Shown one piece after another: positions 21,373 to 43,866 of a DNA stretch of 64,000 nucleotides. Position numbers and translations under genes: made by a program. The notes beneath the pieces were generated by a model. The model was not told the origin of the DNA. It ran no database searches and was given only the letters and a program-made list of their open reading frames with translations. This stretch comes from Longimicrobium sp. (GTDB taxonomy: Bacteria > Gemmatimonadota > Gemmatimonadetes > Longimicrobiales > Longimicrobiaceae). The first letter of the stretch is position 1. Each line of letters opens with the position of its first letter. The stretch covers positions 1-64,000 of the forward strand of contig NZ_DATIND010000001.1 of assembly GCF_035474595.1 (NCBI RefSeq), in the 5' to 3' direction.

Positions 21373-21706
21373 TGCCTAGTGCCTAGTGCCTAGTGCCTAC
21401 TAGTGCCTAGTGCTGAGTGCTGAGTGCTGAGTGGCAGGTGCGTTTGGATGACGAGGTGCCCGCCGCGCTGATGCTGGTGCCACGCGCCCCGGCCGCCACC
21501 GCGCCGATGAAGTCCGCGAAGGCGGACTGCGTGCCCTTGTAGCCGCGACTTCAGTCGCATTTTTCGCTCGCCCCGATGTGCCTCATCACTCGGCACTCGG
21601 CACTCGGCACTCGGCACTTGGCACTTGGCACTCAGGACTCAGGACTTAGGACTTTAGGACTCAGGACTTCCCCAGTCCCGGACGCAGCACCACCGTCCCG
21701 AATCCC
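21373..21706. repeat. Inverted heptamer arrays flanking a REP-like element
   Basis: Left array 21373-21440 is built of AGTGCCT then AGTGCTG units; right array about 21594-21665 of CACTCGG, CACTTGG and GACTCAG units, broadly the reverse complement of the left. Between them, at 21511-21560, lies a REP-like element: agtccgc/gcggact hairpin, gtgcccttgtagc linker, gcgac-ttca-gtcgc hairpin, then a T-run. No gene. The downstream gene starts 40 bases after the array. Confidence 0.8.
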
Positions 21707-25952: not shown

Positions 25953-26969
<1,017 letters not shown>

Positions 26970-27336
26970 ACAGAGCCGGGGTGATGGGGATCGGGGCGGG
27001 GGAGATGCGGATCGCGGCGGCGATGGGCGGAGCCGTGGCGGGGATGTCCGGGATGTACGTGGTCGTGACGGCGTCGATCGTGGAAAATGCGAGTAAACTC
27101 GCGGCTACAACGGCACACAGTTCGCCTGCGCGGACTCCGGTGCGAGCCGTGGCATCCGCGCGCTGTGCCGAATACCCGGCGCACCTAAACCCCGTCGCCC
27201 CGCGGAGGGTTGCAGGCCCCGACGCAGCCCCGTCCCTCCCCCAGGCGGTTTTGGGGGAGGGACAGGCTGTCCGGACGCGACGGGAGTCGCGCCGGGCAGC
27301 CGGGGAGAGGGCCCGCGGGGCCATCCGGAGCGCGCC
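26970..27336. other. Spacer with REP-like element and hairpin
   Basis: No gene. A REP-like element in reverse orientation is at 27083-27137: gcgag-taaa-ctcgc hairpin, ggctacaacggcac linker, then a slightly imperfect agttcgcc/gcggact hairpin. A perfect hairpin at 27231-27263 (gtccctccccc/gggggagggac) lies just upstream of the DUF58 gene. Confidence 0.65.
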
Positions 27337-28343
<1,007 letters not shown>

Positions 28344-28347
<4 letters not shown>

Positions 28348-29459
28348 GGCGCGCCGCCCCGCTCCTGGCCGCCGTGGCGCTGCTGGCCGCCGCGCCGCTC
28401 TCCGCGCAGGACTCCGTTCCCGCGCGGACGGCCGCGCCGCGCGCGGAGCCCGGACGCCGCCTGGGCGCCCTCCGCCCGCGCACGCAGCGCCCGCCGCGCG
28501 CCGCTCCCTCCGCGCCGGCGGGGACGCGCGACACGATCCGCCCCACGCTGGACACCACCACGGCGACGATGCCGCCGCCGCCGGGGTTCGCGTACACGGC
28601 CAGCGTCCGCCCGCGCGCCGTCACCGTCGGCGAACGCTTCGTCTCCGGGCTGGCCGTCTCCGTTCCCGCGGGGACGCGCGTCGCCATCGACGTCGCGAAG
28701 GACTCCGCGGACCGCTGGCGCGTGGTCGGCCGGGCGACGGCGACGGCGGCGGACAGCGCGTGGACGCGCTACCTGGTGGTCGCGCCGATGGTGGCGTGGG
28801 TGCCGGGGCTTCCGGACACCGCGGGGGCGACGCTGCGGCTCACCGCGCCGGACGGGCGCGTCGCCACCATCCCCGTCGCCCTGCGCCTGCCGGAGGTGCG
28901 CTCCGTCCTCCCGGTGGACACGACGAAGTGGCGCGTCCGCCCGCCGCACGACGTGTGGGGCGCGTCGCGCGACTGGCGGCTGCTGGCGCTGCTGGCGGCG
29001 CTCGCGCTTCTCCTGATCGCCCTGATCGCCTGGCTGGTCGCGAAGCTGGTCCGCCGCCGCCGCGCGCGCCGCATCCCCGCGACGGCGCGGGAGCGCGCGC
29101 TGGCGCTGCTGGAGCGCGCGCGCACGAGCGGTTTCATCGAGGCGGGGAACTGGAACGCCTTCTACTCCCTCGTTTCCGAAGCCCTGCGCGGCCTGGCCGC
29201 GTCGCTGGACCCGCGCTGGAGCACGGACCTGACCACCGCCGAGCTGATGGGGGAGATGCGGAGCGCGCGAGCGGACGAGATCCATCTCGCCACCCTGGGC
29301 GAGCTGCTGCGCGTGGCCGACCTGGCGAAGTTCGCCCGCCGCGGGCGTGAGCCGGACGACGCCCGGCGCGACCTGGACCACGCGCGCGACTGGGTGAAGA
29401 CCTTCGCCGCGCCGGCGTCCGAGCCGGCGGAGGCCGTGGCCGCGGAGGTGGCGCCGTGA
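28344..29459 (+). CDS. Exported single-pass membrane protein, Bat-type cluster
   Basis: A 371-residue protein: signal peptide (MRRAAPLLAAVALLAAAPLSAQ), a Pro/Thr-rich extracytoplasmic stretch, a beta-type domain (about 75-205), one transmembrane helix at about 212-236, then a basic stop (RRRRARR) and a cytosolic helical domain (about 245-355). Position between DUF58 and the VWA genes corresponds to the DUF4381/BatD-like partner of such operons. Sequence similarity to those is not obvious to me, so the assignment rests on context. It overlaps both neighbours (ATGA and GTGA). Confidence 0.78.
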
Positions 29460-30442
29460 GGCTGGACCTGGCGCATCCGTGGGCGCTGCTGCTGCTTGCG
29501 CTCGTTCCCGTGTGGTGGTGGCGCGTCCGGCGCGCGCGCGACACGGCCATCGTCTTCTCCCGCGCCTCCACCCTTTCCGCGCTGGGAACGCGCGGCGCGG
29601 CGTTCCTGGGCGTGCTGCCGGAAATCCTGCGCACCGCGGCGCTCGTCTCCCTGATCGTGGCCATCGCCGGCCCGCGCACCGGCGCCCGCGTGGTCGAGGA
29701 GGCGTCGGAGGGGATCGACATCATGCTGGCGCTGGACGTGTCGTCGTCCATGCTGGCGGAGGACTTCACGCCCAACCGGCTGGGCGCGGCCAAGGCGACG
29801 ATGGCCGACTTCGTGGAGAACCGTCCCCACGACCGCATCGGGCTGGTGGCCTTCGCGGCCGAGGCGCTGACGCAGGTGCCCGCGACGGCCGACCACAACC
29901 TCCTGGGCATCCAGCTCGGGAACGTGCAGGTGGGGATGCTGCAGGACGGGACGGCCATCGGGCTGGGGCTGGCCACCGCCGCCAACCGGCTGAAGCAGAC
30001 GCCGGGGCAGAGCCGCGTCATCATCCTGATGAGCGACGGCGACAACAACCGCGGCGCCGTGGACCCGCGCGACGCGGCCAAGGCGGCGGCGGCGTTCGGG
30101 ATCCGCGTGTTCACTATCGGCGTGGGGTCGCGGACGCGCGCGCGCATCCCCGTGGCGGTGACGCCGAACGGGATGCTGCGCTACGCGTGGATGCCGGTGA
30201 GCATCGACGAGCCGCTGCTGCAGGAGATCGCGCGGACCACCGGCGGGCGATACTACCGCGCCACCGACCTGGGGGCGCTGCGGCGCATCTACGCCGAGAT
30301 CGACCGGCTGGTGAAGACGCGGGTGAACGTGCGGCGCTCCGTGCGCTTCAGCGAGCGGTATCTCCCCTTCCTGCTGGCCGCGGCGGTGCTGCTGGTGGCC
30401 GAATGGTGCTTCCGCGCCACGCGCTGGGGGAGGGTGCCCTGA
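29456..30442 (+). CDS. VWA-domain membrane protein, BatA-like
   Basis: A 328-residue protein. Two N-terminal transmembrane helices (about 8-22 and 53-72) and one near the C-terminus flank a von Willebrand A domain with an intact metal-ion site: DVSSSM (DxSxS), the Thr of GTAIGLGL and MSDGDNNRG. BatA/BatB proteins of Bacteroidetes and spirochaetes lie in the same gene order and affect stress tolerance. The start is GTG 29456, overlapping the previous TGA. Its stop overlaps the next ATG by one base. Confidence 0.9.
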   Translation: MRLDLAHPWALLLLALVPVWWWRVRRARDTAIVFSRASTLSALGTRGAAFLGVLPEILRTAALVSLIVAIAGPRTGARVVEEASEGIDIMLALDVSSSMLAEDFTPNRLGAAKATMADFVENRPHDRIGLVAFAAEALTQVPATADHNLLGIQLGNVQVGMLQDGTAIGLGLATAANRLKQTPGQSRVIILMSDGDNNRGAVDPRDAAKAAAAFGIRVFTIGVGSRTRARIPVAVTPNGMLRYAWMPVSIDEPLLQEIARTTGGRYYRATDLGALRRIYAEIDRLVKTRVNVRRSVRFSERYLPFLLAAAVLLVAEWCFRATRWGRVP

Positions 30443-31485
30443 TGGGGATGGCGCACCCGGAGCTCGTGCACCTGATCCCGCTCCTCCCCTGCATCGTGGG
30501 GCTGGCGATGCTGCTGTACGCGCGCCGCCGCCGCCAGGCCGCCGAGGCGCTGGGCGAGGCCGGGCTGGTGCGCCGCCTGAGCGCCGCCGACCTGACCGCC
30601 GCGCCCAACCGCCGCATCCTGCTGGTCACCCTGGCCGCGCTGATGCTGGGCGCCGCCATCGTCGGCCCGCTCTGGGGGGTGGATACCGAGGCCGGCGCGG
30701 AGGGGAACGCCGACGTCGTCCTCGTGCTGGACGCCTCCGGGTCGATGCGGGTGCGCGACCTGACGCCGGACCGGCTGGAGGTGGAGAAGCGCACCGCGCG
30801 CGAGCTCCTTGCGCGGCTGCAGGGCGCTCGCGTGGGTCTGGCCATCTTCGCCGGGCGGGGATACGCCATGTCGCCGCTGACCACCGACTTCAGCGCGCTG
30901 CAGCTGTACATCGACGGCCTGTCGCCGGACCTGGTGACGCAGGGCGGAAGCTCGCTCTCCGACGCCATCGTGCAGTCGCTGGGCCTGCTCGCGGGCGCGC
31001 GCGGCGACGCACCGTCCGGCGCGATGGTGGTGCTGACGGACGGCGACGCGCTGGAGGAGCGCGATGACGTGCTGCGCGCGGTGAACGTCGCCCGCCGCGC
31101 CGGGGTTTCGGTGAGCACGGTGGGGATCGGGACGCCGGCGGGCGGCCAGGTCCCCGACGTGGACCCGATGACGGGAAAGCAGGTGGGGTGGAAGCACGAG
31201 CCGACGGGCGAGGTCGCGACGTCCAGGCTGGGCGCGCCGCTGCTGCAGGAGATCGCGAAGCGCACCGGCGGCGTCTACGCGGACGCGTCCCGCCCCGGCG
31301 CCGCGGCCGCCGTCGCCGCCGCGGCGCGCAGCGTCCCCGCGCGCTCGCGCCGCACGGCGACGGGCGGCGCGCCAGGGAACCGCTACGCGTGGTTCGCGGG
31401 CGTCGCGCTCCTCCTGCTGGCGATCGACGCGCTCCTTCCCGAGGAGCCGGGGCGCCGCCGGCCGCGCGCGGAGGTGGCGTCGTGA
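30442..31485 (+). CDS. VWA-domain membrane protein, BatB-like
   Basis: A 347-residue paralogue of the preceding VWA protein with the same layout: N-terminal helices (HLIPLLPCIVGLAMLLY; ILLVTLAALMLGAAIV), a VWA domain with DASGSM, and a C-terminal helix (YAWFAGVALLLLAIDALL). The loop VPDVDPMTGKQVGW and a long Ala-rich linker precede the last helix. Coupled to both neighbours by overlapping start/stop codons. The two VWA proteins probably form a membrane complex served by the MoxR ATPase. Confidence 0.9.
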   Translation: MGMAHPELVHLIPLLPCIVGLAMLLYARRRRQAAEALGEAGLVRRLSAADLTAAPNRRILLVTLAALMLGAAIVGPLWGVDTEAGAEGNADVVLVLDASGSMRVRDLTPDRLEVEKRTARELLARLQGARVGLAIFAGRGYAMSPLTTDFSALQLYIDGLSPDLVTQGGSSLSDAIVQSLGLLAGARGDAPSGAMVVLTDGDALEERDDVLRAVNVARRAGVSVSTVGIGTPAGGQVPDVDPMTGKQVGWKHEPTGEVATSRLGAPLLQEIAKRTGGVYADASRPGAAAAVAAAARSVPARSRRTATGGAPGNRYAWFAGVALLLLAIDALLPEEPGRRRPRAEVAS

Positions 31486-32168: not shown

Positions 32169-32291
32169 ACGATGGACACCTGCTTTTCAGGAAATCACGG
32201 ACAAACGCAGTGGATGGGACGGTTGACGAAATCGTATTTCGGCATTGATTTAGTGACTCCTTCACGGCTCTCGTCCAACCGATCTTTCTCC

Positions 32292-32861
32292 ATGAACCTC
32301 ATGCGTCCCGGAACCGCCGCGCTGGCGGCGTGCTTGCTCGCGCTCTACCCCCGTGCAGGCACCGCCCAGCAGGACATCGGCCCGCGGCAGGTGATCGGCA
32401 ACTTCGGCGTGTTCCACAAGGTCGATCCCATCACCGACGCGCGGCAGGACATGGCCATCGTCGTCTCCGCCGACCGCGGCCATGCGTCGGCGGTGGCGTG
32501 GGGATGCTTCGAGCGCGGCGCTCGGCTGTCGCTCGCGCTGGAGAACTTCACCGGCGCGCGGCTGAACGTGATCTACCGCTTCGACCAGGAGGCGGCGACC
32601 AACACCGTCGTCTCGCGCATGGTCGAGGGCGGCAACCTCTTCCTGCTGGACGAGGACGAGGTCTACGGCTTCAGCACGCGCGCGATGAACGCGGCGCGGC
32701 TGGTGGTGCGCGCGTTCGACGCGGACGGGCAGCCGTACGACTACTTCTTCGACCTGAACGGCTCCGGGCGCGCGTTGCGCTCGCTGCCGTGCATCGCCAC
32801 GCTGCGCCCGCCCGTCGCCGGCGAGCCTGCCGTGCGCAAGCCGTCGGACAAGCCGCGCTGA
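32292..32861 (+). CDS. Secreted protein with DPITD motif, paralogue 1
   Basis: A 189-residue exported protein: signal peptide cleaved near GTAQQ, then a compact domain starting VDPITDARQD, with VAWGCFERG, VIYRFDQE and a C-terminal LRSLPCIATLRPP. The gene at 33137 has the same elements in the same order. The layout (a DPI-[ST]-D start, one Cys before a beta strand, then YRFD) vaguely recalls TagO/VasI-like proteins, but I would not assign it. ATG 32292 begins the signal peptide; the open frame upstream is not protein-like. Confidence 0.7.
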   Translation: MNLMRPGTAALAACLLALYPRAGTAQQDIGPRQVIGNFGVFHKVDPITDARQDMAIVVSADRGHASAVAWGCFERGARLSLALENFTGARLNVIYRFDQEAATNTVVSRMVEGGNLFLLDEDEVYGFSTRAMNAARLVVRAFDADGQPYDYFFDLNGSGRALRSLPCIATLRPPVAGEPAVRKPSDKPR

Positions 32862-33136
32862 TCCCCATCTCCCGCCAGCCTTCCTCGCTGTGCGGGGAAC
32901 GGCTGAAATCGGAATTCGGCGGGATGCACGGAAGCTTGCAGATTGCCGCGGGGGATTGACGTAAACCGTTCTGGCGGTTTGTTTTTCTGCGCTCGATCCG
33001 CTCCTGCCCGTCTCCCGGAATTCCCTCCGATGTGAAGCGTATGCTCGAGGCCGCAGCCTTCGCCGAGCGGAGCGGCAGGTCGCGGGAGCAGGCGCCGCAT
33101 CCCCCCATCGATCACGCAACGAGCAGCAGAACCCCG

Positions 33137-33697
33137 ATGCAGAAGCGAATCATCCGCGCGTCCATGGCCGCGCTCCTGGGATTGATGGCGATGAGCGGCC
33201 GTGCGGTGGCGCAGAACCCCGTGCAGACCTTTGGCACCTTCACGATGTCGCGCAACGTGGACCCGATCAGCGACGAGGACCGCTCCAACGCGGCGGTGGC
33301 ATCGGTCGACAGCACGGCGGTGATGTGGTGGCAGTGCTACGGCGACACGGCCGGCGTGTTCGCGGCGTTCAAGGAGCCGCCCGAGGGCGAGGAGATCGAC
33401 GCCGTGTACCGCTTCGACCAGGACCGGCCCGACACCACGGTGCTGACCTCCGCGCCCAGCGACGGCTACGTCTGGCTCTTCTTCCCCGAGGAGGAGACGT
33501 ACGCCATCACGCAGCGGGCGATGACCGCCGGCCGCTTCGTCCTGCGCGTCTGGGACGCCGACGACAGCACCCGCGACTTCATCTTCACCCTGAGCGGCGG
33601 CGGCCGCGCGCTGCGCACCCTGCCGTGCGTCACGCGCATGCGCCCGCCTGTGGCCGGCCAGCCCGCCGTCCAGAAGCGCTCCGACAAGCCGCACTGA
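33137..33697 (+). CDS. Secreted protein with DPISD motif, paralogue 2
   Basis: A 186-residue exported protein with signal peptide (MQKRIIRASMAALLGLMAMS, then GRAVAQ). Shares with the 32292 product VDPISDEDRS, a Trp-x-Cys before a strand (WWQCYG), AVYRFDQD, TQRAMTAGRFVLRVWDAD, GRALRTLPC and a C-terminal PVAGQPAV...SDKP. Two conserved Cys suggest a disulfide in the cell envelope. A terminator follows. Function unknown. Confidence 0.7.
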   Translation: MQKRIIRASMAALLGLMAMSGRAVAQNPVQTFGTFTMSRNVDPISDEDRSNAAVASVDSTAVMWWQCYGDTAGVFAAFKEPPEGEEIDAVYRFDQDRPDTTVLTSAPSDGYVWLFFPEEETYAITQRAMTAGRFVLRVWDADDSTRDFIFTLSGGGRALRTLPCVTRMRPPVAGQPAVQKRSDKPH

Positions 33698-34791: not shown

Positions 34792-35913
34792 ATGAATCAC
34801 GCGAAGACTTCCGAGACCAAGGTCGAGGCGCCCGCCCAGCCGGCGCCCGCGGCCCCGCAGCCCTCCTCGCTCGCCGCCGTTCCCGCGGCCTCGCAGCAGC
34901 TTTCCGCCCCCGCCGGCGGCGCCGAGCTGGCGGCGATGGCCGACTTGGCCGGCGACATCGCCGGGCTCGGCGCGACCACGCTCGAGGCCACGGGCGGCAT
35001 CACCGACGACCCGGTCCGCGCCGCGCAGGCGTCGGTCGTGGACGAGCTGGCCAAGGGCGGCCCGGCCTTCGGCGCCTTCCTGCGCTCGGTGGGGCTGGCC
35101 GTGGCCGAGACCCAGGGCGCGCTTGACAAGACGCTGGTGGAAACCAGCAAGGCGCTCTCCGAGGCCAAGGTGCAGACCGTGGCCATGTTCACGCAGGAGC
35201 TGAAGGACGACGGCACCTTCGACAAGGCCACGCCGGTGATGCAGGAGCTGCCGCTGATCGCCTTCGTGCAGCCCACCGCGTACCAGTTCACCACGGTGCA
35301 CCTCACCGCCGACATGGAGGCCAGCGAGTTCAACACCGCCAACGGCTTCAACATCAAGAAGGACCACAGCGACTTCGGCGCCGACCTGAAGGCCAGCTAC
35401 AGCGTGTTCGGCGGCTTCGGCGGCTCGCTGGACGCCAGCTACAACAACACCCACGACGAGACGCAGGAGCGCAAGAGCAGCAGCGAGCGCAAGGCCGCCG
35501 GCAAGCTGCACATGGAGGCCACCCTGGAGCCCCGCCCCGCCTTCGCGCTGCCGCAGCCGTTCGTGGTGCAGAAGGGCCCCAAGCTGGGCGTGCTGGTGAC
35601 CGGCCGGAAGGAGCTGGACAAGGACGGCAACGAGACCACCGACCCCAAGCTGGTGACCCAGCGCACGGTGACGGCGGTGGCCACGCTGCTGGACAAGGAC
35701 GGCAAGCCGATGGCCACCAAGGCGCTGGACGTGGCCTGCGACAACGCCAACATCGGCGTGGTGGTGGCCGACGGCGGGAAGACCACCACCGACGGCACGC
35801 TCACCATCACCCTGAAGCGCACCGGGCTGACGGCCGAGAGCTCGGCGGCGGTCAGCGCCCTGCTGCGGGTGTCCATGAACCTGGTGAACGCCAGCGTTCC
35901 GGTCAGCGTCTGA
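34792..35913 (+). CDS. DUF2589-like protein A, first gene of the cassette
   Basis: A 373-residue protein with no signal peptide. An Ala/Pro-rich N-terminus is followed by a helical segment with VGLAVAETQGALDKTL, then strands around ELPLIAFVQPTAYQF (about 152-166), a central alternating hydrophobic/polar Ser/Gly-rich region (FGADLKASYSVFGGFGGS), LHMEATLEPRPAF, and a C-terminal Ig-like domain (about 280-373). Proteins at 40063 and 41189 share every block, and a mini-version is at 42260. The order (VAxTQ helix, PL(I/V)xF.xP strand, amphipathic hairpin) resembles what I remember of DUF2589; this is a memory-based inference. It ends 3 bases before the next gene. Confidence 0.72.
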   Translation: MNHAKTSETKVEAPAQPAPAAPQPSSLAAVPAASQQLSAPAGGAELAAMADLAGDIAGLGATTLEATGGITDDPVRAAQASVVDELAKGGPAFGAFLRSVGLAVAETQGALDKTLVETSKALSEAKVQTVAMFTQELKDDGTFDKATPVMQELPLIAFVQPTAYQFTTVHLTADMEASEFNTANGFNIKKDHSDFGADLKASYSVFGGFGGSLDASYNNTHDETQERKSSSERKAAGKLHMEATLEPRPAFALPQPFVVQKGPKLGVLVTGRKELDKDGNETTDPKLVTQRTVTAVATLLDKDGKPMATKALDVACDNANIGVVVADGGKTTTDGTLTITLKRTGLTAESSAAVSALLRVSMNLVNASVPVSV

Positions 35914-35916
35914 GCC

Positions 35917-37116
35917 ATGGCCTCCCTACGCGAGTGGCACGGGTTCGAGAACAGCGTGCGCTGGCGGCTGGTTCCCGAAGGGGTGGAGATCGAGGGATCG
36001 GGGGTGGAGCGCTCGAAAGGGCGCCCCACCACGGTCGCCCGGGTGTGGGACGCGTTCGGCGAGGCCATCAACCAGGTGGCGAAGGCGCGCCAGGTGCCCT
36101 GCCCGCTGATCGTGGCCACCATCTGCACCGAGAGCGGCGGCAACCCCGACGCGGTGCGGCTCGAGCCCGGCTACGTGAGCGACGCGGCCACGCCGGGCCG
36201 GGTGAGCATCGGCCTCACGCAGACGCTGATCTCCACCGCGTCCGAGACCATGCGGATGAGCATCGACCGCGAGTGGCTGCGGCAGCCGCGCAACGCGATC
36301 GACGCCGGGGCCAGCTACATCGCCCGGCAGGGCAGGACCACGAAGTTCGACCCGCCGCTGGTGGCCGCGGCCTACAACGCGGGGCGGCTGGCGCACCAGA
36401 ACGGCGAGAAGAACCGCTGGAAGCTGCGGCAGTTTCCCATCGGCACCCCGGCGCACTGCGACCGCTTCGTGAAGTTCTACAACGACGCGGTGGCGATGAT
36501 GGCCGGCCACCCGCTGGCGCCCACGGTGCCGCACTCGGTGCTCATCGGCGGGAGCTACGAGCCGCCGGTGGTGTCGCAGGCGCCGCCGCCGCGCTACGCC
36601 GAGGCCAGCGGGTTCACCGCCCCGGGCGACGCCAAGGTGACGTTCGGCAGCAACGCCGACCCGCGGGCGGTCACGCCGTACAGCCTGCAGGTGCTGAAGT
36701 CGATCCTGAAGACGGCCAACCTGCGCGGGTGCATGGTCTCCAGCACCTCGCGCGACCCGGCGCAGCAGGCGCGGGTGATGTTCGACAACCTGGAGCGCTA
36801 CGGCGTGGAGCATCAGAAGCGGCTCTACGCGCGCGGCGGGCAGATGGTGTGCGACGCCTACGCCGAGGCCAGGGCGCGCGGCCTGTCGAGCGACGGGGTG
36901 AAGGACGCGATGGCCAGGAAGATCATCGCCATCGGCCCCACCAAGGTGTCGCGGCACGCGTCCGACCCCACGGTGCTGAACGTGTTCGACGTGGCGCCCA
37001 GCTCCATCACCGACCGCGTGGCGTTCGAGGCGGCGGTGCGGTCGGACCGGCGGGTGGCGTTCTTCCTCACCCCGCCGCGGGATCCGGGATACCATCTCGA
37101 GATTCCGCAGCCGTAA
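35917..37116 (+). CDS. Lytic transglycosylase (SLT) fused to an M15-like peptidase domain
   Basis: A 399-residue predicted peptidoglycan hydrolase. Residues about 45-200 are an SLT/goose-lysozyme-type domain with catalytic E72 in ICTESGGNPDAVR, IGLTQTLIS and AAYNAGRLAH. A linker leads to a second domain (about 235-399) with SSTSRDPAQQARVMFDN, SRH (H347), an Asp ten residues on (D358) and a final YHLEI (H393), the spacing of zinc ligands in M15 carboxypeptidases. There is no signal peptide, so export or lysis must come from elsewhere. The gene is 3 bases after the DUF2589-like gene. The transglycosylase call is firm; the M15 call is probable. Confidence 0.82.
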   Translation: MASLREWHGFENSVRWRLVPEGVEIEGSGVERSKGRPTTVARVWDAFGEAINQVAKARQVPCPLIVATICTESGGNPDAVRLEPGYVSDAATPGRVSIGLTQTLISTASETMRMSIDREWLRQPRNAIDAGASYIARQGRTTKFDPPLVAAAYNAGRLAHQNGEKNRWKLRQFPIGTPAHCDRFVKFYNDAVAMMAGHPLAPTVPHSVLIGGSYEPPVVSQAPPPRYAEASGFTAPGDAKVTFGSNADPRAVTPYSLQVLKSILKTANLRGCMVSSTSRDPAQQARVMFDNLERYGVEHQKRLYARGGQMVCDAYAEARARGLSSDGVKDAMARKIIAIGPTKVSRHASDPTVLNVFDVAPSSITDRVAFEAAVRSDRRVAFFLTPPRDPGYHLEIPQP

Positions 37117-37446
37117 GGAAAAGTGCGGAGTGCTGAGTGCTGAGTGCCGAAAAGAAGAAGTCCTAAGTCCTGAGTCCTGAGTCCCAAGTGGGCCGGATTT
37201 GACCCGACGGCGCGCCGGGCAGCAGCACCGAAATACCGCGATCCGGTACTCAGCACTCAGCACTCAGCACTTAGGACTTAGGACTCAGCACTTAGGACTT
37301 AGGACTTAGGACTTAGGACTTAGGACTTAGGACTTAGGACTTAGGACTTAGGACTTAGGACTTAGGACTTAGGACTTAGGACTTAGGACTCAGCACTTCG
37401 CTCCACCGCAGTCCCCGAATCCCAACTTTCCTTGAGGTCATAGATC
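37117..37446. repeat. Inverted heptamer array
   Basis: Left arm about 37123-37187 (AGTGCTG, then AGTCCTA/AGTCCTG units); right arm about 37241-37398 (CACTCAG, then some 14 uninterrupted ACTTAGG units). The arms are reverse complements in sequence type and could fold into a long hairpin around a ~55-base GC-rich centre. It lies between the hydrolase and subtilase genes. Confidence 0.85.
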
Positions 37447-40017
37447 ATGTACGCACTGGTGGACCGCGAACGCGAGGCGATGCTGGGCGGCCTGCGCGTG
37501 GTCGCGCGCTACCCGGCCTTCGTGCTGGTGAGCGGCGACGAGCTTCCCGCCGGCCTCCCCGCCGGCGAGGTGGAGGTCCTGGGCGACGAGACCATCTCCG
37601 TGCACGGCGAACCCGTGCGCATCGCCGGGGGCGTGTTCGAGACGGGCGATGCGCCGCACGTGCTGGTGCGCTTCGTCGGCCCCGTCACCGGGGAGTGGAA
37701 GGGCGAGCTCGCCGCGAAGTCGGTGGAGGTGCTTTTCTGGTGCCCCCGCTTCGGCGCCTGCGTCGCCCTTCCCGAGGGAATGGACGGGGCCGCGCTCCAG
37801 GCCGCCTTCCCCTTCATCGCCGGCGCGCAGCCGTACCTGGAGGAGCACTGCAGCCGCGGGCTCGAGGAGCAGTCCGGCAGCCGCACCGTCTCCCCGCCGG
37901 ACCTGTACGACCTCGTCTGCTTCTCGAAGGAAGACCGGGCGCGCGTCGCCGAGGAGCTGAAGGGGATGGGGATCGAGGTGCTCGACGCGTCCTCGTCCAA
38001 GATCCGCGTGCGCTTCCAGGGCGATCCGCAGGTGCTCCGCGACATCGTGGGCGTGAAGATCGTGGACCCCGCCCGCGTTCCCGTCACCCTGCAGACCGCG
38101 GCGGCCGCCGCCCCGGCGACGACCGCCGGCGCGCTCGGCCTGGCCGGCGGCGAGGCGGCGGGGCTCACCGGGCGCGGCCAGGTGATCGCCGTGGCCGACA
38201 CGGGGCTGGACACCGGCGCGGCGGACGCGTCGCTGCACCCCGACTTCCGCGGCCGCGTGCGCTTTCTCCGCAGCTGGCCCGTGAACCCCTCGTGGTCGCC
38301 GTTCGTGAAGACGCCCGGCGCCGACGACGGCCCGGCCGACCGCAACAGCGGCCACGGCACCCACGTGGCCGGGCTGGCGCTGGGCGGCGGCGCGCTCGAG
38401 GGCGCCCACCGCGGCGTGGCGCCCGAGGCGGAGCTCGTCTTCCAGTCGCTGGAGCAGTACACCGACGTCGCCACCGCCTACGCGTCGCGCATCCCCACCG
38501 GCTACTACCTGAGCGGCCGGCCGCTGGACCTGCGCGAGCTCTTCCGCGAGGCGCGGGCGCAGGGCGCGCGCATCCACGTGAACTCGTGGGGCGACCCGGC
38601 GCAGGGGCGCTACACCGACGACTGCTTCGAGGCCGACCTGTTCCTGCGCGAGAACCCCGACGCGGTGGTGCTCTTCGCCGCCGGCAACGACGGGTGCGAC
38701 CGGGACGGCGACCGGCTGCGCGACGCGGGATCGCTCTACGCGCCGGCCACGGCCAAGAACGTCGTCACCATCGGCGCCACCGAGGGCGCCGCGTCGGGGG
38801 TGGGCGTCCGCGGCAGCTGGGGCGACATGGACCCCGCGTTCGACCGCTACCGCAGCACCGCCGACCGCGCCGACGCGGTGTCGGGCGATCCCACGCAGCT
38901 GGCGCAGTTCTCCTCCGCCGGGCCCACGGCGGACGGGCGCATCAAGCCCGACGTCTGCGCGCCGGGGACCAACCTCGTGGCCCCCCGGTCGCAGCGCTGC
39001 CGCGGCAACGGCTGGGGGCTGGCCAGCCCGCTCCCGTACTACATGTACTTCGGCGGGACGTCGATGGCCAACGGCGTGGCGGGCGGGTTCGCCGCGCTGG
39101 TGCGGCAGGCGTGGGAGGCGGAGCTGGGGCAGGCCCCCGGTGGCGCGGCGCTGAAGGCGCTGCTGGTGCACGGCGCGCGCCCCGTCCTCCGCCGCGACGG
39201 AAAGGGCCCCGAGCCGCGCACCGCGGCCGGGTTCGGGCGGCTGCACTTCGACGGCTGCGCGCCGCGCCAGGCCGACCGGACGGTGAAGCTGGTGGAGGAC
39301 GCGCCGGGGCTCGGCAGCGGCGAGCTGCGCGAGTACCGCTTCACCCTGCGCCGCGCGGGGACGGTGCGCGCGGTGCTGGCCTGGTACGACGCGCCGGGCG
39401 AGCGGCTGGTGAACGACCTGGACCTCACCCTTTCCGGCCCCGCCGGGAAGGTGTGGGGGAACCACCCGGCCGGGCAGGCGGGCGCGCCCGACCGCGCCAA
39501 CACCGTCGAGGTCGTGCACCTGGACGACGCGGCGCCGGGCGAGTACGTGCTCCGCGTGACCGGCGCCAACGTTCCCGCCGGGCCGCAGCCCTTCGCGCTG
39601 GTCTACACCCACCCCGCGTCGCCCGCCGTCATCGAGCTCCCGGTGGACTTCATCTCGGGGATCGGCGCGGCGGCGGCGAAGAAGCTCGCGGCGGCCGGAG
39701 CGGCGACGGTGGGCGCGCTGCAGCGGATGGGCGACGACGAGATCGCCGCGCACACGGGGCTGCGCGGGAAGAAGCTGGAGACGCTGCGCGGCCGGCTGGC
39801 CGCGCTGGAGAGCGCGGCCGCGCGGCGCCCCGCCGCGGGGCTGCCGCCCTCGCTCACGCTGGCCCAGGTGGGCGCCCCCGCGGCGCCGCCCCCCGCCGGC
39901 GTGGCCCCCGAGGCGTGGACCCGCGCCGCGGCCGAGCTGCGGCCGCTGGCCGAGGTGTTCGACCGCACCCGCCTGGGACGCATCCGCCTGGCCGACCTGT
40001 TCGGCGCGGCGGGCTGA
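37447..40017 (+). CDS. Intracellular-type subtilase (S8) with C-terminal HhH domain
   Basis: An 856-residue serine protease without signal peptide. Residues 1-210 look like two pro-domain-type regions (LYDLVCFSKEDRARVAEELKGMGIEVLD). The S8 domain has D251 in VIAVADTGLD, H303 in SGHGTHVAGLA and S539 in FGGTSMANGVAGG. A P-domain-like beta domain follows (about 605-725). Residues about 728-790 form helix-hairpin-helix/DUF4332-type sequence (ISGIGAAAAKKLAAAGAATV). The HhH type recurs in the 42675 gene. The triad is intact, so it should be active, perhaps processing the neighbouring DUF2589-like proteins. A heptamer array precedes it. Confidence 0.88.
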   Translation: MYALVDREREAMLGGLRVVARYPAFVLVSGDELPAGLPAGEVEVLGDETISVHGEPVRIAGGVFETGDAPHVLVRFVGPVTGEWKGELAAKSVEVLFWCPRFGACVALPEGMDGAALQAAFPFIAGAQPYLEEHCSRGLEEQSGSRTVSPPDLYDLVCFSKEDRARVAEELKGMGIEVLDASSSKIRVRFQGDPQVLRDIVGVKIVDPARVPVTLQTAAAAAPATTAGALGLAGGEAAGLTGRGQVIAVADTGLDTGAADASLHPDFRGRVRFLRSWPVNPSWSPFVKTPGADDGPADRNSGHGTHVAGLALGGGALEGAHRGVAPEAELVFQSLEQYTDVATAYASRIPTGYYLSGRPLDLRELFREARAQGARIHVNSWGDPAQGRYTDDCFEADLFLRENPDAVVLFAAGNDGCDRDGDRLRDAGSLYAPATAKNVVTIGATEGAASGVGVRGSWGDMDPAFDRYRSTADRADAVSGDPTQLAQFSSAGPTADGRIKPDVCAPGTNLVAPRSQRCRGNGWGLASPLPYYMYFGGTSMANGVAGGFAALVRQAWEAELGQAPGGAALKALLVHGARPVLRRDGKGPEPRTAAGFGRLHFDGCAPRQADRTVKLVEDAPGLGSGELREYRFTLRRAGTVRAVLAWYDAPGERLVNDLDLTLSGPAGKVWGNHPAGQAGAPDRANTVEVVHLDDAAPGEYVLRVTGANVPAGPQPFALVYTHPASPAVIELPVDFISGIGAAAAKKLAAAGAATVGALQRMGDDEIAAHTGLRGKKLETLRGRLAALESAAARRPAAGLPPSLTLAQVGAPAAPPPAGVAPEAWTRAAAELRPLAEVFDRTRLGRIRLADLFGAAG

Positions 40018-40062
40018 AACCGCAGGACCCCCAATCAACCGAATCTCACGGAGAACTACATC

Positions 40063-41145
40063 ATGGCGGAGAGCAAGAAGCCGCGGGCGCAGCAGCCCGG
40101 GGCGGAAGCCGAGGTGAAGGAGCAGGAGATGGAGCTCGCGGGCGCGGCCGTTCCCACGGGGAGCATGTCGCTGGCCGAGGCGGGCGTGGACGCGCCGGTG
40201 ATCGGCGCCCCGGTGGGCGGCTTCTCGCCCGACTTCATGCCCGCGGGCGCGTCTACCGGCGCGCTGGCGCTGGGCGCCGACGTCACGGGCGGGCTGACCA
40301 GGCTGGCGCCCACCTTCGGCGAGGTGCTGCTGTCGGTGGGGCAGGGGGTGGCCGAGTCGCAGGCGGCGCTCGACCGGTCGCTCATCGACACGGCCAAGGA
40401 GCTGAGCAAGACCAAGATCAAGGTGGTGACCGACGTCATCCAGAAGCTGGACGACGACGGCCTTCCCGACGCCGAGCAGACGCAGCTGATCACCGAGGAC
40501 GTGTCGCTGATCAACTTCCTGAGCCCCGAGGTGCACGAGTGGAAGAACGTGGCCATCTCGATGGACTTCGAGGTGGGCGCCATCGACTCGGAGCGCGGGG
40601 TGCAGTTCAAGCAGAGCCAGGGCACCAGCAAGGTGCAGGCTGGCGCCAGCTTCTGGGGCTTCGGCAGCTGGTTCAACTACGACTACCAGTCGCAGTCCAC
40701 CCAGGTGAACAGCCACAGCGACTCCGAGAGCAGCTGGGCCACCGGCCAGGTGAAGCTCGACGCCACCCTGGCGCCGCGCCGCACCGAGAAGTTCACCGCG
40801 CCGTCGCAGGTGGTGATCGGGCCGCAGATCTTCTTCGCGCAGGGCGCCATCACCAGGGTCACCGCCAGCGGCAAGGAAACCGCCCGGTCGATGCCGATCA
40901 CCGTGACCGTGCTGAAGGCCAGCGGCGAGCCGAACCCCAACGCGCCGCTGGTGGTGGAGTGCGACAAGTTCGGGTACTCGTTCGTGGCCGACGCCCCCTT
41001 CAAGGGGAGCCTGACCAACCCCGACGGGCAGGTGAAGGTGATGGTCACGCGGCAGATCCCCGACGAGCGCTTCTCGGCCGCGCAGAAGGGCACCGTGACC
41101 GTGCGGCTGGGCGCCATCGTGCGCACCCTCGAGATCGTCCTCTGA
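40063..41145 (+). CDS. DUF2589-like protein B
   Basis: A 360-residue paralogue of the 34792 product. Conserved blocks: GQGVAESQAALDRSLIDTAK (helix), VSLINFLSPEVHEWKNVAI (about 147-165), a Ser/Trp-rich central stretch (SFWGFGSWFNYDYQSQ), LDATLAPRRTEKF, VVIGPQIFF, and an Ig-like C-terminus (ITVTVLKASGEPNPNAPLVV; NPDGQVKVMV). No signal peptide. RBS GGAG lies 12 bases before the ATG. The centre is the most divergent part and alternates polar and hydrophobic residues as an amphipathic beta-hairpin would. Function unknown. Confidence 0.72.
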   Translation: MAESKKPRAQQPGAEAEVKEQEMELAGAAVPTGSMSLAEAGVDAPVIGAPVGGFSPDFMPAGASTGALALGADVTGGLTRLAPTFGEVLLSVGQGVAESQAALDRSLIDTAKELSKTKIKVVTDVIQKLDDDGLPDAEQTQLITEDVSLINFLSPEVHEWKNVAISMDFEVGAIDSERGVQFKQSQGTSKVQAGASFWGFGSWFNYDYQSQSTQVNSHSDSESSWATGQVKLDATLAPRRTEKFTAPSQVVIGPQIFFAQGAITRVTASGKETARSMPITVTVLKASGEPNPNAPLVVECDKFGYSFVADAPFKGSLTNPDGQVKVMVTRQIPDERFSAAQKGTVTVRLGAIVRTLEIVL

Positions 41146-41188
41146 CCCCCCCCTTTGACGCTGAACGCGGAAAGCGAGACATAGAACG

Positions 41189-42121
41189 ATGGCGGACAAC
41201 AACCTGCCGGCGGGGCTGTTCGGCTCCGTGCTGGCCACCGGAACGAGCGACGTGAGCGGCGAGGGGCGGGCGGCCGGCCTGGCCTTCGGCGAGCTGATCA
41301 AGAAGACCGGCGAGGCCGTGGCCGAAACGCAGAAGCTGCTGAACCACACCTCGGCGCAGTCGGCCACCGCGCTGGCCACCACGCTGGTCGACGTGGTTGC
41401 GGTGGAGGAGAAGACGTACAACGACTCGGGCGTGCTGACCACCAGCACCGCGCACACCATGCAGCTGCCGCTGGTGAACTTCATCGACCCCACCTTCTAC
41501 CGCTGGAGCCAGGTGCGGCTGCAGGGCGAGTTCATCGCCCGCGAGTTCACCGGCGAGAGCGACACCGGCACCGACACGGCCACCTCGCAGAGCAACGTGG
41601 GGATCAGGCTGGGCGGCATCTTCGGCATCGGCTACGCGTCGGGCGGCGGGAGCAGCACGGGCACGTCGACGAGCACCGACACGAAGACCACGGCCAGCGA
41701 GGACTACTCGTACGGGCGGATCCGCGCCAACGCGCAGCTGAACCCCCGCCCCGACGTGGTGGTGCAGCGCCCCAACCAGGTGATCCAAGGCCCGCGCCTG
41801 GCCGTGATCTCGGGCGACGTGCAGGACGAGAAGACCGACGCCAGGATCACCGGCCGCACCATCAAGGTGCTGCTCACCTACCACCGCGCCTCGGGCGAGC
41901 CCATCAAGGACAAGCCGCTGGCGATCGACGTGCAGGGGCTCACCTGGAGCTACACCAACCCGGCGCAGGACAAGACCGACGCGAACGGGAACCTGCAGAT
42001 CACCGTGCACCGCGACATCCCGCTCGACGGCGAGGGGAACCAGGGCGACACCGCGCCGAAGGACTTCGTGGTCACCGCCCGGATCGGGATCATCCAGAAC
42101 AGCACGACGATCACGTTCTGA
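41189..42121 (+). CDS. DUF2589-like protein C
   Basis: A 310-residue paralogue lacking the long N-terminal linker of A and B. Conserved blocks: GEAVAETQKLLNHT, MQLPLVNFIDPTFYRWSQV (about 91-109), a Thr/Ser/Gly-rich centre (IFGIGYASGGGSSTGTSTST), AQLNPRPDVVV, and an Ig-like C-terminal domain (KVLLTYHRASGEPIKDKPLAI; TDANGNLQITV). No signal peptide. It follows B by 43 bases and is in turn followed by a heptamer array. Confidence 0.72.
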   Translation: MADNNLPAGLFGSVLATGTSDVSGEGRAAGLAFGELIKKTGEAVAETQKLLNHTSAQSATALATTLVDVVAVEEKTYNDSGVLTTSTAHTMQLPLVNFIDPTFYRWSQVRLQGEFIAREFTGESDTGTDTATSQSNVGIRLGGIFGIGYASGGGSSTGTSTSTDTKTTASEDYSYGRIRANAQLNPRPDVVVQRPNQVIQGPRLAVISGDVQDEKTDARITGRTIKVLLTYHRASGEPIKDKPLAIDVQGLTWSYTNPAQDKTDANGNLQITVHRDIPLDGEGNQGDTAPKDFVVTARIGIIQNSTTITF

Positions 42122-42123
42122 GT

Positions 42124-42240
42124 GAAAAGTGCCCAGTGCCTAGTGCCTAGTGCCTGGTTCTGGTGTCTCACGGACGGCGGTGCGGTTCACTTGGCACTTG
42201 GCACTTGGCACTTGGCACTTGGCATTTTGGCACTACTACT
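42124..42240. repeat. Inverted heptamer array
   Basis: Left arm about 42127-42156 (AGTGCCC/AGTGCCT units), right arm about 42189-42238 (CACTTGG units, five or six), broadly reverse complementary around a ~32-base centre. It separates the C and D paralogues. Confidence 0.8.
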
Positions 42241-42259
42241 CGCAGCAACGACGGAACCG

Positions 42260-42649
42260 ATGAGCGACGGATCCACGGGCGCCCCGCCTAGCATCGGGGT
42301 GGAGTTCGGGTCGCTGCTGACCACCACGGTGGCGGCGGTGGCGCAGGCGCAGCAGGAGCTGGACGACCGCACGCTGGCGCGCTCGCGCGAGTACCGCGCC
42401 CTTCCCGATGGCGAGCTGGCGGTGCCGCCGCTCTGGTTCGCCTTCAGCCAGGTGGCGCTGGAGCTGGAGATGTCGGCCACGGTGGCCGGCGGCGCCACCG
42501 GCGACGGGCGGCTCTTCTGCCGCACCGCCGACCCCACCATGGTGGGGCTGTACGGCTACGAGGCCTCGGCCGGGGTGAAGGTGCGGCTGCTGATGGGCCC
42601 GCGCGGGCCCCTGACCATCAAGGACGCGGGCGGCGACGACGCCCGCTGA
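42260..42649 (+). CDS. Mini DUF2589-like protein D (129 aa)
   Basis: A 129-residue protein with a shortened version of the paralogue pattern: TTTVAAVAQAQQELDDRTLA (helix), AVPPLWFAFSQVALELEMSA (strand pair), and a short beta tail ending GPLTIKDAGGDDAR. It lacks the central Ser-rich region and the C-terminal Ig-like domain. The ATG at 42260 was chosen because the open frame upstream runs through the heptamer array. Perhaps a subunit, chaperone or cap of the larger paralogues; this is inference. Confidence 0.65.
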   Translation: MSDGSTGAPPSIGVEFGSLLTTTVAAVAQAQQELDDRTLARSREYRALPDGELAVPPLWFAFSQVALELEMSATVAGGATGDGRLFCRTADPTMVGLYGYEASAGVKVRLLMGPRGPLTIKDAGGDDAR

Positions 42650-42674
42650 ACCATAGAGCGCAGGACGGAGCGAG

Positions 42675-43694
42675 ATGGAGGACACACCGCAGGCCGGCTA
42701 TCCGCAGATCCCCCTGGACATGCCGGTGTCGGGGGTCACGGCGGCCACCCTCACCACCGGGACCACCGACCCGGCGGTCACCATCAGCGCGCTGCAGCAG
42801 CAGGTGACCGACCTGCAGCTGGCCAACACGCAGCTGCGCAGCCAGCTGGTGACCATGCAGGAAACGGAGCTGGCCTACCGCGAGAAGCTGGTGGCGCTGC
42901 AGCAGACCGAGATCACGCTGCGCGAGCAGCTGGGGCAGACGCAGACGCAGTCCGGCCGCGAGCCCGACGACTTCGCCAGCGCGGTCAGCCACTCGCTCGA
43001 CACGCTGCAGACGCGGCTCTCGGGGCTCTCCAACCCGCTCACCGACTTCGCGGTGCGCGAGTTCTCGATCGACGCGAAGGTGGCGGTGAACGTGACGCGG
43101 CTGGGCACCGTGGAGTACCGCTTCATCCAGCCCGGCGAGAAGGTGGACCCCACCGCCGTCAGCAACGTGAAGATGACGGTGGTCCCGGTGCCCAAGCAGA
43201 CGCAGGCGGGAAGCTGGGGCCCGGTGGAGTTCACGCCGTCGGCCGGGGTGGACGAGATCCGCGGGATCGGCAGGCAGCTCCGGCAGCAGCTGAACCAGGA
43301 GGGGATCTACACCGTGGGCGACCTGCTGCACGCCGGCGGCCGCGTCCGCGGCACGGTGGAGCTGGCCTCGCTGCTCGAGGTGGACCGCTACCGGGTGGAG
43401 GAGTGGCTGGCGCACGCGCAGCTGCTGACCATCCGCGACGTGGACGGACGCACCGCGGGGGTGCTGTACGAGCTGGGGATCCGCAACCTGGAGCAGCTGG
43501 CCGCGAGCAACCCCGAAACGCTGGCCGCGGAGTTCAACGGCCAGGTGCAGCGCACCGGCCGGCGCCGCGTGAACGAGGTCGACGCCGCGCGGGTGACGCC
43601 GTGGATCGTGGCGGCGCGCAACTTCCTGGGCCAGCAGCCGCCCGCGGAGCCAGAGCCCATCCCGCCGGCCTCGCCACAGGATTCACCGGCATAA
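42675..43694 (+). CDS. Coiled-coil protein with DUF2589-like strands and HhH/DUF4332-type tail
   Basis: A 339-residue cytosolic protein. Residues about 35-95 form a coiled coil rich in Gln and Leu (SALQQQVTDLQLANTQLR and following). A middle beta segment (DFAVREFSIDAKVAVNV to MTVVPVPK) resembles the strand part of the neighbouring paralogues. Residues about 195-325 contain two HhH-like units: GVDEIRGIGRQLRQQLNQEG with TVGDLL, and VLYELGIRNLEQLAASNPE. HhH sequence also ends the subtilase, suggesting the two proteins bind a shared partner, nucleic acid or each other. ATG 42675 follows AGGACGGAG. Confidence 0.7.
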   Translation: MEDTPQAGYPQIPLDMPVSGVTAATLTTGTTDPAVTISALQQQVTDLQLANTQLRSQLVTMQETELAYREKLVALQQTEITLREQLGQTQTQSGREPDDFASAVSHSLDTLQTRLSGLSNPLTDFAVREFSIDAKVAVNVTRLGTVEYRFIQPGEKVDPTAVSNVKMTVVPVPKQTQAGSWGPVEFTPSAGVDEIRGIGRQLRQQLNQEGIYTVGDLLHAGGRVRGTVELASLLEVDRYRVEEWLAHAQLLTIRDVDGRTAGVLYELGIRNLEQLAASNPETLAAEFNGQVQRTGRRRVNEVDAARVTPWIVAARNFLGQQPPAEPEPIPPASPQDSPA

Positions 43695-43696
43695 GG

Positions 43697-43866
43697 AAGA
43701 AAAGAAGTCCTAAGTGCTAAGTCCTAAGTCCCAAGTGGGGCACTCAGCACTCAGCACTCAGCACTCAGCACTCAGCACTCAGCACTCAGCACTCAGCACT
43801 CAGCACTCAGCACTCAGCACTCAGCACTTAGGACTTAGGACTTAGCACTTAGGACTTAGCACTTCG
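43697..43866. repeat. Inverted heptamer array ending the cassette
   Basis: Left arm about 43705-43737 (AGTCCTA, AGTGCTA units), right arm 43739-43866 (about 12 CACTCAG units, then ACTTAGG/ACTTAGC units). The arms abut closely, giving a potential hairpin directly after the last cassette gene; it could act as a transcript end. Confidence 0.85.

Follow-up and report, generated by a model that had tools for sequence, protein, structure and literature searches.

KP-43-type subtilases are secreted enzymes, and DUF2589 (PF11655) is a protein family for which we know of no function. In fungi, an S8 subtilase gates cell death, with HET-Q2 arming HET-Q1 (PMC10989679), while the EAD1/NucA multi-peptidase and MoxR-vWA conflict systems, found mainly in multicellular prokaryotes, comprise peptidases and wall-attacking effector domains (PMC7159879). 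Here we describe a seven-gene cassette (genes A to G, all on the + strand, positions 34792-43694) of Longimicrobium sp. (GCF_035474595.1, contig NZ_DATIND010000001.1); the window is the whole stretch analysed, positions 1-64,000 of this contig. The cassette combines a protease with DUF2589-like proteins and may be an undescribed device for controlled cell lysis or self-defence. The reading that we favour, tentatively and with less than even confidence, is a cytosolic, protease-gated assembly of the DUF2589 superfamily that targets the envelope and whose most plausible purpose is suicide/defence or programmed lysis; the product of gene B would be a local wall-cutting effector.

Conservation and distribution of the cassette

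The seven-gene order recurs in a congener and the order C-D-E-F-G recurs in five further genomes from other phyla, and the cassette is therefore more than a chance grouping. These five genomes, in which both order and strand are kept, are a Planctomycetaceae metagenome-assembled genome (MAG), a gammaproteobacterial MAG, Intrasporangium flavum, I. calvum and a Zoogloeaceae MAG (Betaproteobacteria) whose contig is cut at both ends. The order was found by a pattern-based scan of 84,980 species genomes, in which recovery was partial and the counts are lower bounds; the sampling of Actinomycetota, to which Intrasporangium belongs, was incomplete. Conservation of gene order across genomes, raised in an earlier note on this DNA, was thus borne out for the C-G core. 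Homologues scattered in unrelated contexts, which the note had named as evidence against its view, were only half borne out: the flanking genes are unrelated, but the core moves intact.

Within the genus, one of nine other genomes carried the cassette, with all seven genes in order and ~60-79% identity. It is very rare, being present in two of 61 close relatives and in three of 395 genomes of the phylum (both counts include its own genome, and the second a distant form), and sweeps of ~300-400 genomes per phylum in three phyla added only one distant form. No full cassette was found on plasmids when tested with D. In the congener the cassette occupies a different locus, on contigs C203/C74 beside other genes, and the homologues of the window flanks are on C205 and C37. 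In a further congener, G004, the flank genes do not enclose the cassette: the distance between them is 1.9 kb, taken up by two genes that by eye are unrelated, as against 13 kb here.

The A-B pair, a paralogue plus an SLT hydrolase, was found only here and in one congener. At the other five C-G loci there was no upstream A orthologue, only matches to the D/E paralogues, and no match to B. Judged from these sequence matches, the core is C-D-E-F-G, to which this genus adds the accessory pair A-B. The hydrolase, listed in the earlier note among the cassette genes, is not part of the conserved core, since B is absent from the other five loci.

Gene calls and a hydropathy scan confirmed seven co-oriented genes without signal peptides, as previously described: no signal-peptide-like or transmembrane stretch was detected in A-G (top 19-residue Kyte-Doolittle mean of 1.35). 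Library matches were restricted to an SLT domain in B, S8 and a weak helix-hairpin-helix (HhH) in C, and DUF4332/HhH in G, and no significant match to A, D, E or F was found in Pfam, NCBIfam, PHROGs or PADLOC.

The gene C subtilase

The C protein is composed of a ~240-residue N-terminal region, an S8 domain (residues 242-597; Pfam E=1e-41), a jelly-roll/PPC-like domain and a C-terminal HhH, the last being absent from both Intrasporangium copies. The triad D251/H303/S539 is invariant across six orthologues and, together with the Pfam match, supports the earlier assignment of an intact S8 protease. The closest solved structures are those of KP-43/SubHal (1wmd, 5fax), with a likeness that covers the catalytic domain and the following jelly-roll (1wmd, E=2e-82). 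In contrast to these enzymes, C has no signal peptide and carries the N-terminal region and an added HhH.

Other assignments for C were rejected. As a mycosin of type VII secretion systems it scored 50.7 bits (cut-off 278.75), and it has no signal or membrane stretch. As the IetS component of IetAS it scored 23.9 bits (cut-off 900), and the cassette contains no AAA ATPase. A relationship between its N-terminal region and a standalone I9-like inhibitor, the small protein of a protease-less module (see below), reached only E=0.008 and was dropped.

Remote relationship of the paralogues to DUF2589

A, D and E are full-length paralogues with mutual identities of ~24-30%, and F aligns with their core, in agreement with the three full-length copies and one mini-paralogue seen earlier. 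The VAxTQ helix and PL-x-x-F-x-x-P strand attributed to them were present with small deviations: the helix reads VAETQ in A and E, VAESQ in D and VAQAQ in F, and the strand reads LPLIAFVQP (A), VSLINFLSP (D), LPLVNFIDP (E) and VPPLWFAF (F).

The Pfam model of DUF2589 matched none of A, D, E and F, and nothing in their own genome at E<=10. A bridging family was found in protease-less modules of a gammaproteobacterial MAG (L024), genome G356 (L037, a member of the same taxonomic order as the window) and a Sphaerotilus plasmid (L038), which consist of two core genes and a coiled-coil gene, with a small gene in the module. In profile-profile comparisons this family matched D/E/A (probability 98, E 1e-14, score 100 against a shuffled maximum of 19) and true DUF2589 (probability 94, E 1e-7, 160 columns, score 55 against a shuffled maximum of 18), and F matched the bridging family (probability 91, E 1e-6). 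Controls were 30 column shuffles, and the real scores were 3-5 times the best shuffle. The direct match between the D/E/A and DUF2589 profiles was weak (E 4e-4). Because the bridging matches stand well above the shuffled controls and the Pfam model is silent, profile comparison places D, E, A and F as remote DUF2589 relatives at the superfamily level, not as Pfam members, and the label "DUF2589-like" used in the earlier note is kept in that sense only. Trypco2 (PF19631) matched one distant relative (G356) below the cut-off (E=0.045) and none of the window proteins.

In the AlphaFold2 (AF2) model of D, the core comprises a helix (83-116) and strands (118-168 and 229-239) of moderate confidence, interrupted by a serine/threonine (S/T)-rich insert (171-228) of very low confidence. 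The C-terminal immunoglobulin (Ig)-like domain of D resembles intimin D0/D1 (Z 9.8, root mean square deviation 2.6, 89 residues). Two structure searches aimed at the fold of the D core returned Ig domains or weak matches.

Core strands 3 and 4 are separated by a segment of ~40-58 residues, which in E and DUF2589 is rich in S+T (40% against 20% overall in E; 31% against 16% overall in DUF2589). A hydrophobic Gly/aromatic tip lies at mid-length (mean 0.50, standard deviation 0.03) in D, E, DUF2589 and the bridging family; compared with shuffled sequences the tip is stronger in the first three, but not in the bridging family. From its sequence, this segment might be a pore-forming hairpin. An extension of this idea, which we regard as speculative and unlikely, is that the DUF2589 superfamily is a new class of soluble pore formers, with S/T-rich hairpin arms and a hydrophobic tip, that replaces the holin. 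Its simple form would admit a signal-less endolysin to the wall and the form in the window would be armed by the subtilase, giving a protease-gated suicide/defence machine unrelated to gasdermins. No gasdermin sequence match was found in Pfam, and the structure search was dominated by Ig domains, with a core model of low confidence.

Wall hydrolases beside DUF2589 genes

True DUF2589 genes were found in five of 200 Pseudomonadota genomes, four plasmids and six viral contigs, mostly as tandem pairs. A peptidoglycan hydrolase adjoins them in nine of 13 independent loci and belongs to one of six unrelated families (Table 1); this association emerged from the data before it was counted, and the figure has no matched background rate behind it. 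No hydrolase was recognised at the remaining loci (G819, G718, L061 and L062). Seven of the nine hydrolases lack a signal peptide, while the N-terminus of the two MltF-like enzymes is hydrophobic. As a weak control, two 49-kb stretches taken from two of the plasmids included here contain 70 genes, none of which is a hydrolase by name. Such recurrent proximity to wall hydrolases fits the lysis function proposed earlier, and unrelated hydrolase families swapped at one conserved partner look like effector modules, suggesting a concrete clue to the function of DUF2589.

The N-terminal half of B is an SLT domain (Pfam E=1e-15, 57.7 bits against a cut-off of 21.3), and the protein has a hydrophilic N-terminus without a signal peptide. 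The M15 part of its earlier description as an SLT/M15 hydrolase was not confirmed: the second half had no Pfam M15 match, either within the whole protein or as a domain alone, and its motifs SRH, FDVAP and YHLEI, kept in L039, are spaced differently from the classical M15 motif. This half recurs in one IMG/VR contig (57% identity) and had no phage match. The succession of A and the predicted signal-less SLT protein B, 3 bp apart, repeats the DUF2589-hydrolase arrangement.

A signal-less hydrolase beside DUF2589 pairs would also fit a release device, in which a DUF2589-like particle, filament or tube, matured by the protease, exits the cell with the help of the wall hydrolase. Several paralogues, a coiled coil and maturation by a protease are reminiscent of how particles are assembled, and two contigs carry DUF2589 pairs with phage-type genes (L061 and L062; RecA-like, DnaB-like and glycosyltransferase, by eye). 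We consider this quite improbable, as Pfam and PHROGs gave no match of the paralogues to a sheath, tube, baseplate, capsid or portal protein and no hydrolase was seen at the other C-G loci. Two phage identities of the cassette were rejected. Against a prophage, no homologue of D, E or F was found in viral contigs or phages, and a phage lysis cassette is not supported by A-G, which have no hydrophobic segment for a holin, nor by the surroundings, which have no phage genes.

Other genes accompany DUF2589 pairs. LuxR-type genes (GerE or response-regulator-like) lie beside them in four loci, which suggests dedicated control, and a conserved ~90-residue protein (KRI.VG.....N...C..G) travels with pairs in three loci. 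In G718 the single DUF2589 gene is immediately preceded by a gene for a DUF922 protein with a HEDGH motif, and the pair on L062 adjoins short lipoprotein-like genes.

Gene G and a proposed mode of action

The G protein has a coiled coil (33-93, an AF2 helix), a helix with four strands (97-172) and a DUF4332 domain (197-316; Pfam E=8.8e-17), in accordance with the coiled-coil/HhH protein described earlier. Its two HhH units resemble the RadA/RAD51 N-terminal and NusA AR2 domains (Z ~7-9). The two Intrasporangium copies both lack the HhH of C and have a degenerate first hairpin in G, a coincidence in sequence that hints that C and G meet through their HhH.

Under the favoured reading of an envelope-directed assembly, a hetero-oligomer would be built from D, E, F and the core segment of G, with A in this genus. 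The coiled coil and HhH of G would link its parts, and C would be docked on it, perhaps via the C-terminal HhH of C. A trigger, such as phage infection or another stress, would lead C to cleave the large paralogues, plausibly at the junction of core and Ig-like tail or within the exposed S/T-rich insert. The helix-plus-strands core, freed by this cleavage, would then act on the membrane. A-B would add, in this genus, a signal-less lytic transglycosylase that cuts the wall after the membrane breach, much as in the many DUF2589 loci with an endolysin-like gene, and the producing cell would be killed or lysed on cue.

Several observations weigh against this scheme. At the five other C-G loci no hydrolase was found, either as a B match or among the scanned neighbours, and the annotated genes around the Sphaerotilus copy, which has no protease, include none either. 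The neighbours of the cassette copies are mostly housekeeping genes. The order of secondary structure elements (H-E-E-E-E) in a low-confidence model suggests a DUF2589-like core in G, for which sequence comparison was not significant. The AF2 models have a mean predicted local distance difference test score of ~62, and <50 in the S/T-rich segment. Finally, polar and apolar residues alternate along the hairpin arms of DUF2589 and of the bridging family, whereas those of D and E show no such alternation.

The same protein domains could serve regulated proteolysis or quality control, with a DUF2589-like cytosolic scaffold recruiting clients to the subtilase via Ig-like and HhH domains, no lysis, and A-B as a chance neighbour. 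All the cassette parts are cytosolic, the enzyme conserved in the core is the protease and not the hydrolase, and Ig-like and HhH domains, including those of G with their RadA/RAD51 and NusA likeness, are often interaction modules. However, the existence of modules that combine such paralogues with a coiled-coil gene but have no protease implies that the paralogues act without it, a patchy cross-phylum spread is unusual for housekeeping functions, and the association of DUF2589 with hydrolases is left unexplained. This explanation is possible, though on the doubtful side.

Genomic setting

The window cassette is flanked by a MoxR-vWA operon and an ABC transporter. The operon (Bat-like) is kept in genus members without the cassette, and between it and gene A is a tandem pair of paralogous secreted proteins that belong to no known family, both matching one contig-end place in congener G008. 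A SIR2-like gene lies divergently just upstream of the planctomycete C-G copy.

Defence-island neighbours, for which the earlier note had suggested looking, were not demonstrated, as the genes around the copies are mostly housekeeping apart from that SIR2-like gene. This bears on a third explanation, an anti-phage, peptidase-centred conflict system in which the subtilase would act as the toxic effector by cleaving proteins of the host, with the paralogues as sensor and inhibitor. The patchy distribution, the SIR2-like gene and the weak similarity of the C catalytic domain to IetS (PADLOC E=1.5e-8) are consistent with it, and published peptidase-centred systems include wall-attacking effectors (PMC7159879). 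It is nevertheless an unlikely explanation: there is no AAA ATPase partner, unlike in IetAS, the neighbours are mostly non-defence genes, and the cassette has no NTPase or nucleotide-signal module.

The intergenic distances are 330 bp for B-C, with a heptamer array inside, 43-45 bp for C-D and D-E, and 25 bp for F-G. Heptamer arrays (ACTTAGG, GCACTCA or CACTTGG) occur at four places of the window, and similar arrays are dispersed genome-wide, with dozens of matching places here and in congeners. One of them lengthens the apparent open reading frame of F, which opens at 42122 with 46 codons of translated heptamer repeat; the ATG start in Table 1 is backed by F relatives.

Table 1. Features of the cassette and of related loci. 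Positions without a locus name refer to the window.
Feature	Position or locus	Strand	Description
Gene A	34792..35913	+	373 aa, predicted DUF2589-superfamily core and C-terminal Ig-like domain
Gene B	35917..37116	+	399 aa, SLT lytic transglycosylase domain (residues 50-167) and C-terminal domain (residues 241-399), family unconfirmed
Heptamer array ACTTAGG	37248..37398	.	18.6 copies, separates A-B and C-G modules
Gene C	37447..40017	+	856 aa, cytosolic KP-43-type subtilase
Gene D	40063..41145	+	360 aa, predicted DUF2589-superfamily core and Big_1-like Ig domain (253-360)
Gene E	41189..42121	+	310 aa, second core paralogue, architecture as D
Gene F	42260..42649	+	129 aa, mini-paralogue, core alone
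Gene G	42675..43694	+	339 aa, coiled coil, helix/four strands and DUF4332 HhH domain
Heptamer array GCACTCA	43740..43863	.	17.7 copies, closes cassette
Heptamer array	42188-42234
Heptamer array	21587-21670
MoxR-vWA operon	25953-31485		upstream of cassette
Secreted protein	32172-32861		first of tandem pair
Secreted protein	33032-33697		second of tandem pair
Amidase_3	G740		beside DUF2589
GH19	G863, G870		beside DUF2589
GH24	Burkholderia stagnalis		beside DUF2589
PF11860 muramidase	Smac51 plasmid		a few genes downstream of DUF2589
MltF-like SLT	two Vibrio plasmids		beside DUF2589
GH108	L060		beside DUF2589
GH24	L063-L065 (counted once)		both sides of DUF2589
LuxR-type gene	L054 4027-4710		beside DUF2589 pair
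LuxR-type gene	L063 5825-6424		beside DUF2589 pair
LuxR-type gene	L058 6466-7056		beside DUF2589 pair
LuxR-type gene	L053 3750-4091		beside DUF2589 pair
~90 aa protein	L058 8434-8712		with DUF2589 pair
~90 aa protein	L059 9317-9583		with DUF2589 pair
~90 aa protein	L060 5678-5959		with DUF2589 pair
DUF922 protein	L056 7255-7779		upstream of DUF2589 gene
SIR2-like gene	L019 5201-7114		upstream of C-G copy

Comparison with described systems

No described system with this gene combination was found in the open-access literature, in line with the earlier note. If the favoured reading of a protease-gated, envelope-directed assembly is wrong, a conserved cytosolic subtilase complex across phyla still needs explanation.

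Among the systems closest to the cassette are the protease-less modules of Sphaerotilus sulfidivorans plasmid pSna507_unt10 (EWH46_RS19845-19865, five genes), G356 and the gammaproteobacterial MAG (four genes). They share two core paralogues followed by a coiled-coil gene, to which two of the three modules add another, small core-like gene, and differ in having no subtilase, Ig-like tails or HhH; a small protein absent from the window starts the module or sits within it. DUF2589 (PF11655) pairs share the homologous core, the tandem genes, the lack of signal peptides and, in nine of 13 loci, an adjoining wall hydrolase, as in A-B. They have no subtilase, Ig-like tails or HhH/coiled-coil protein, and the window proteins miss the Pfam model. 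Against this background, the window cassette shows how the DUF2589 superfamily may have come under protease control.

The EAD1/NucA and MoxR-vWA systems likewise combine peptidases with wall-attacking effector domains, but the cassette has no NTPase, EAD, NucA or trypsin, and their description makes no mention of DUF2589 or DUF4332 (PMC7159879). In its logic, the arming of HET-Q1 by the S8 protease HET-Q2 comes nearest to the proposed lysis device among known systems. Compared with HET-Q1/HET-Q2 and the bacterial gasdermin-protease systems, no gasdermin similarity was detected here by sequence, and there are several paralogues and Ig, HhH and wall-hydrolase parts. If our reading is right, the likeness is that an intracellular protease, of the S8 family in HET-Q2, gates a death protein encoded next door (PMC10989679), and the cassette would represent a second, non-gasdermin route to protease-gated bacterial death.

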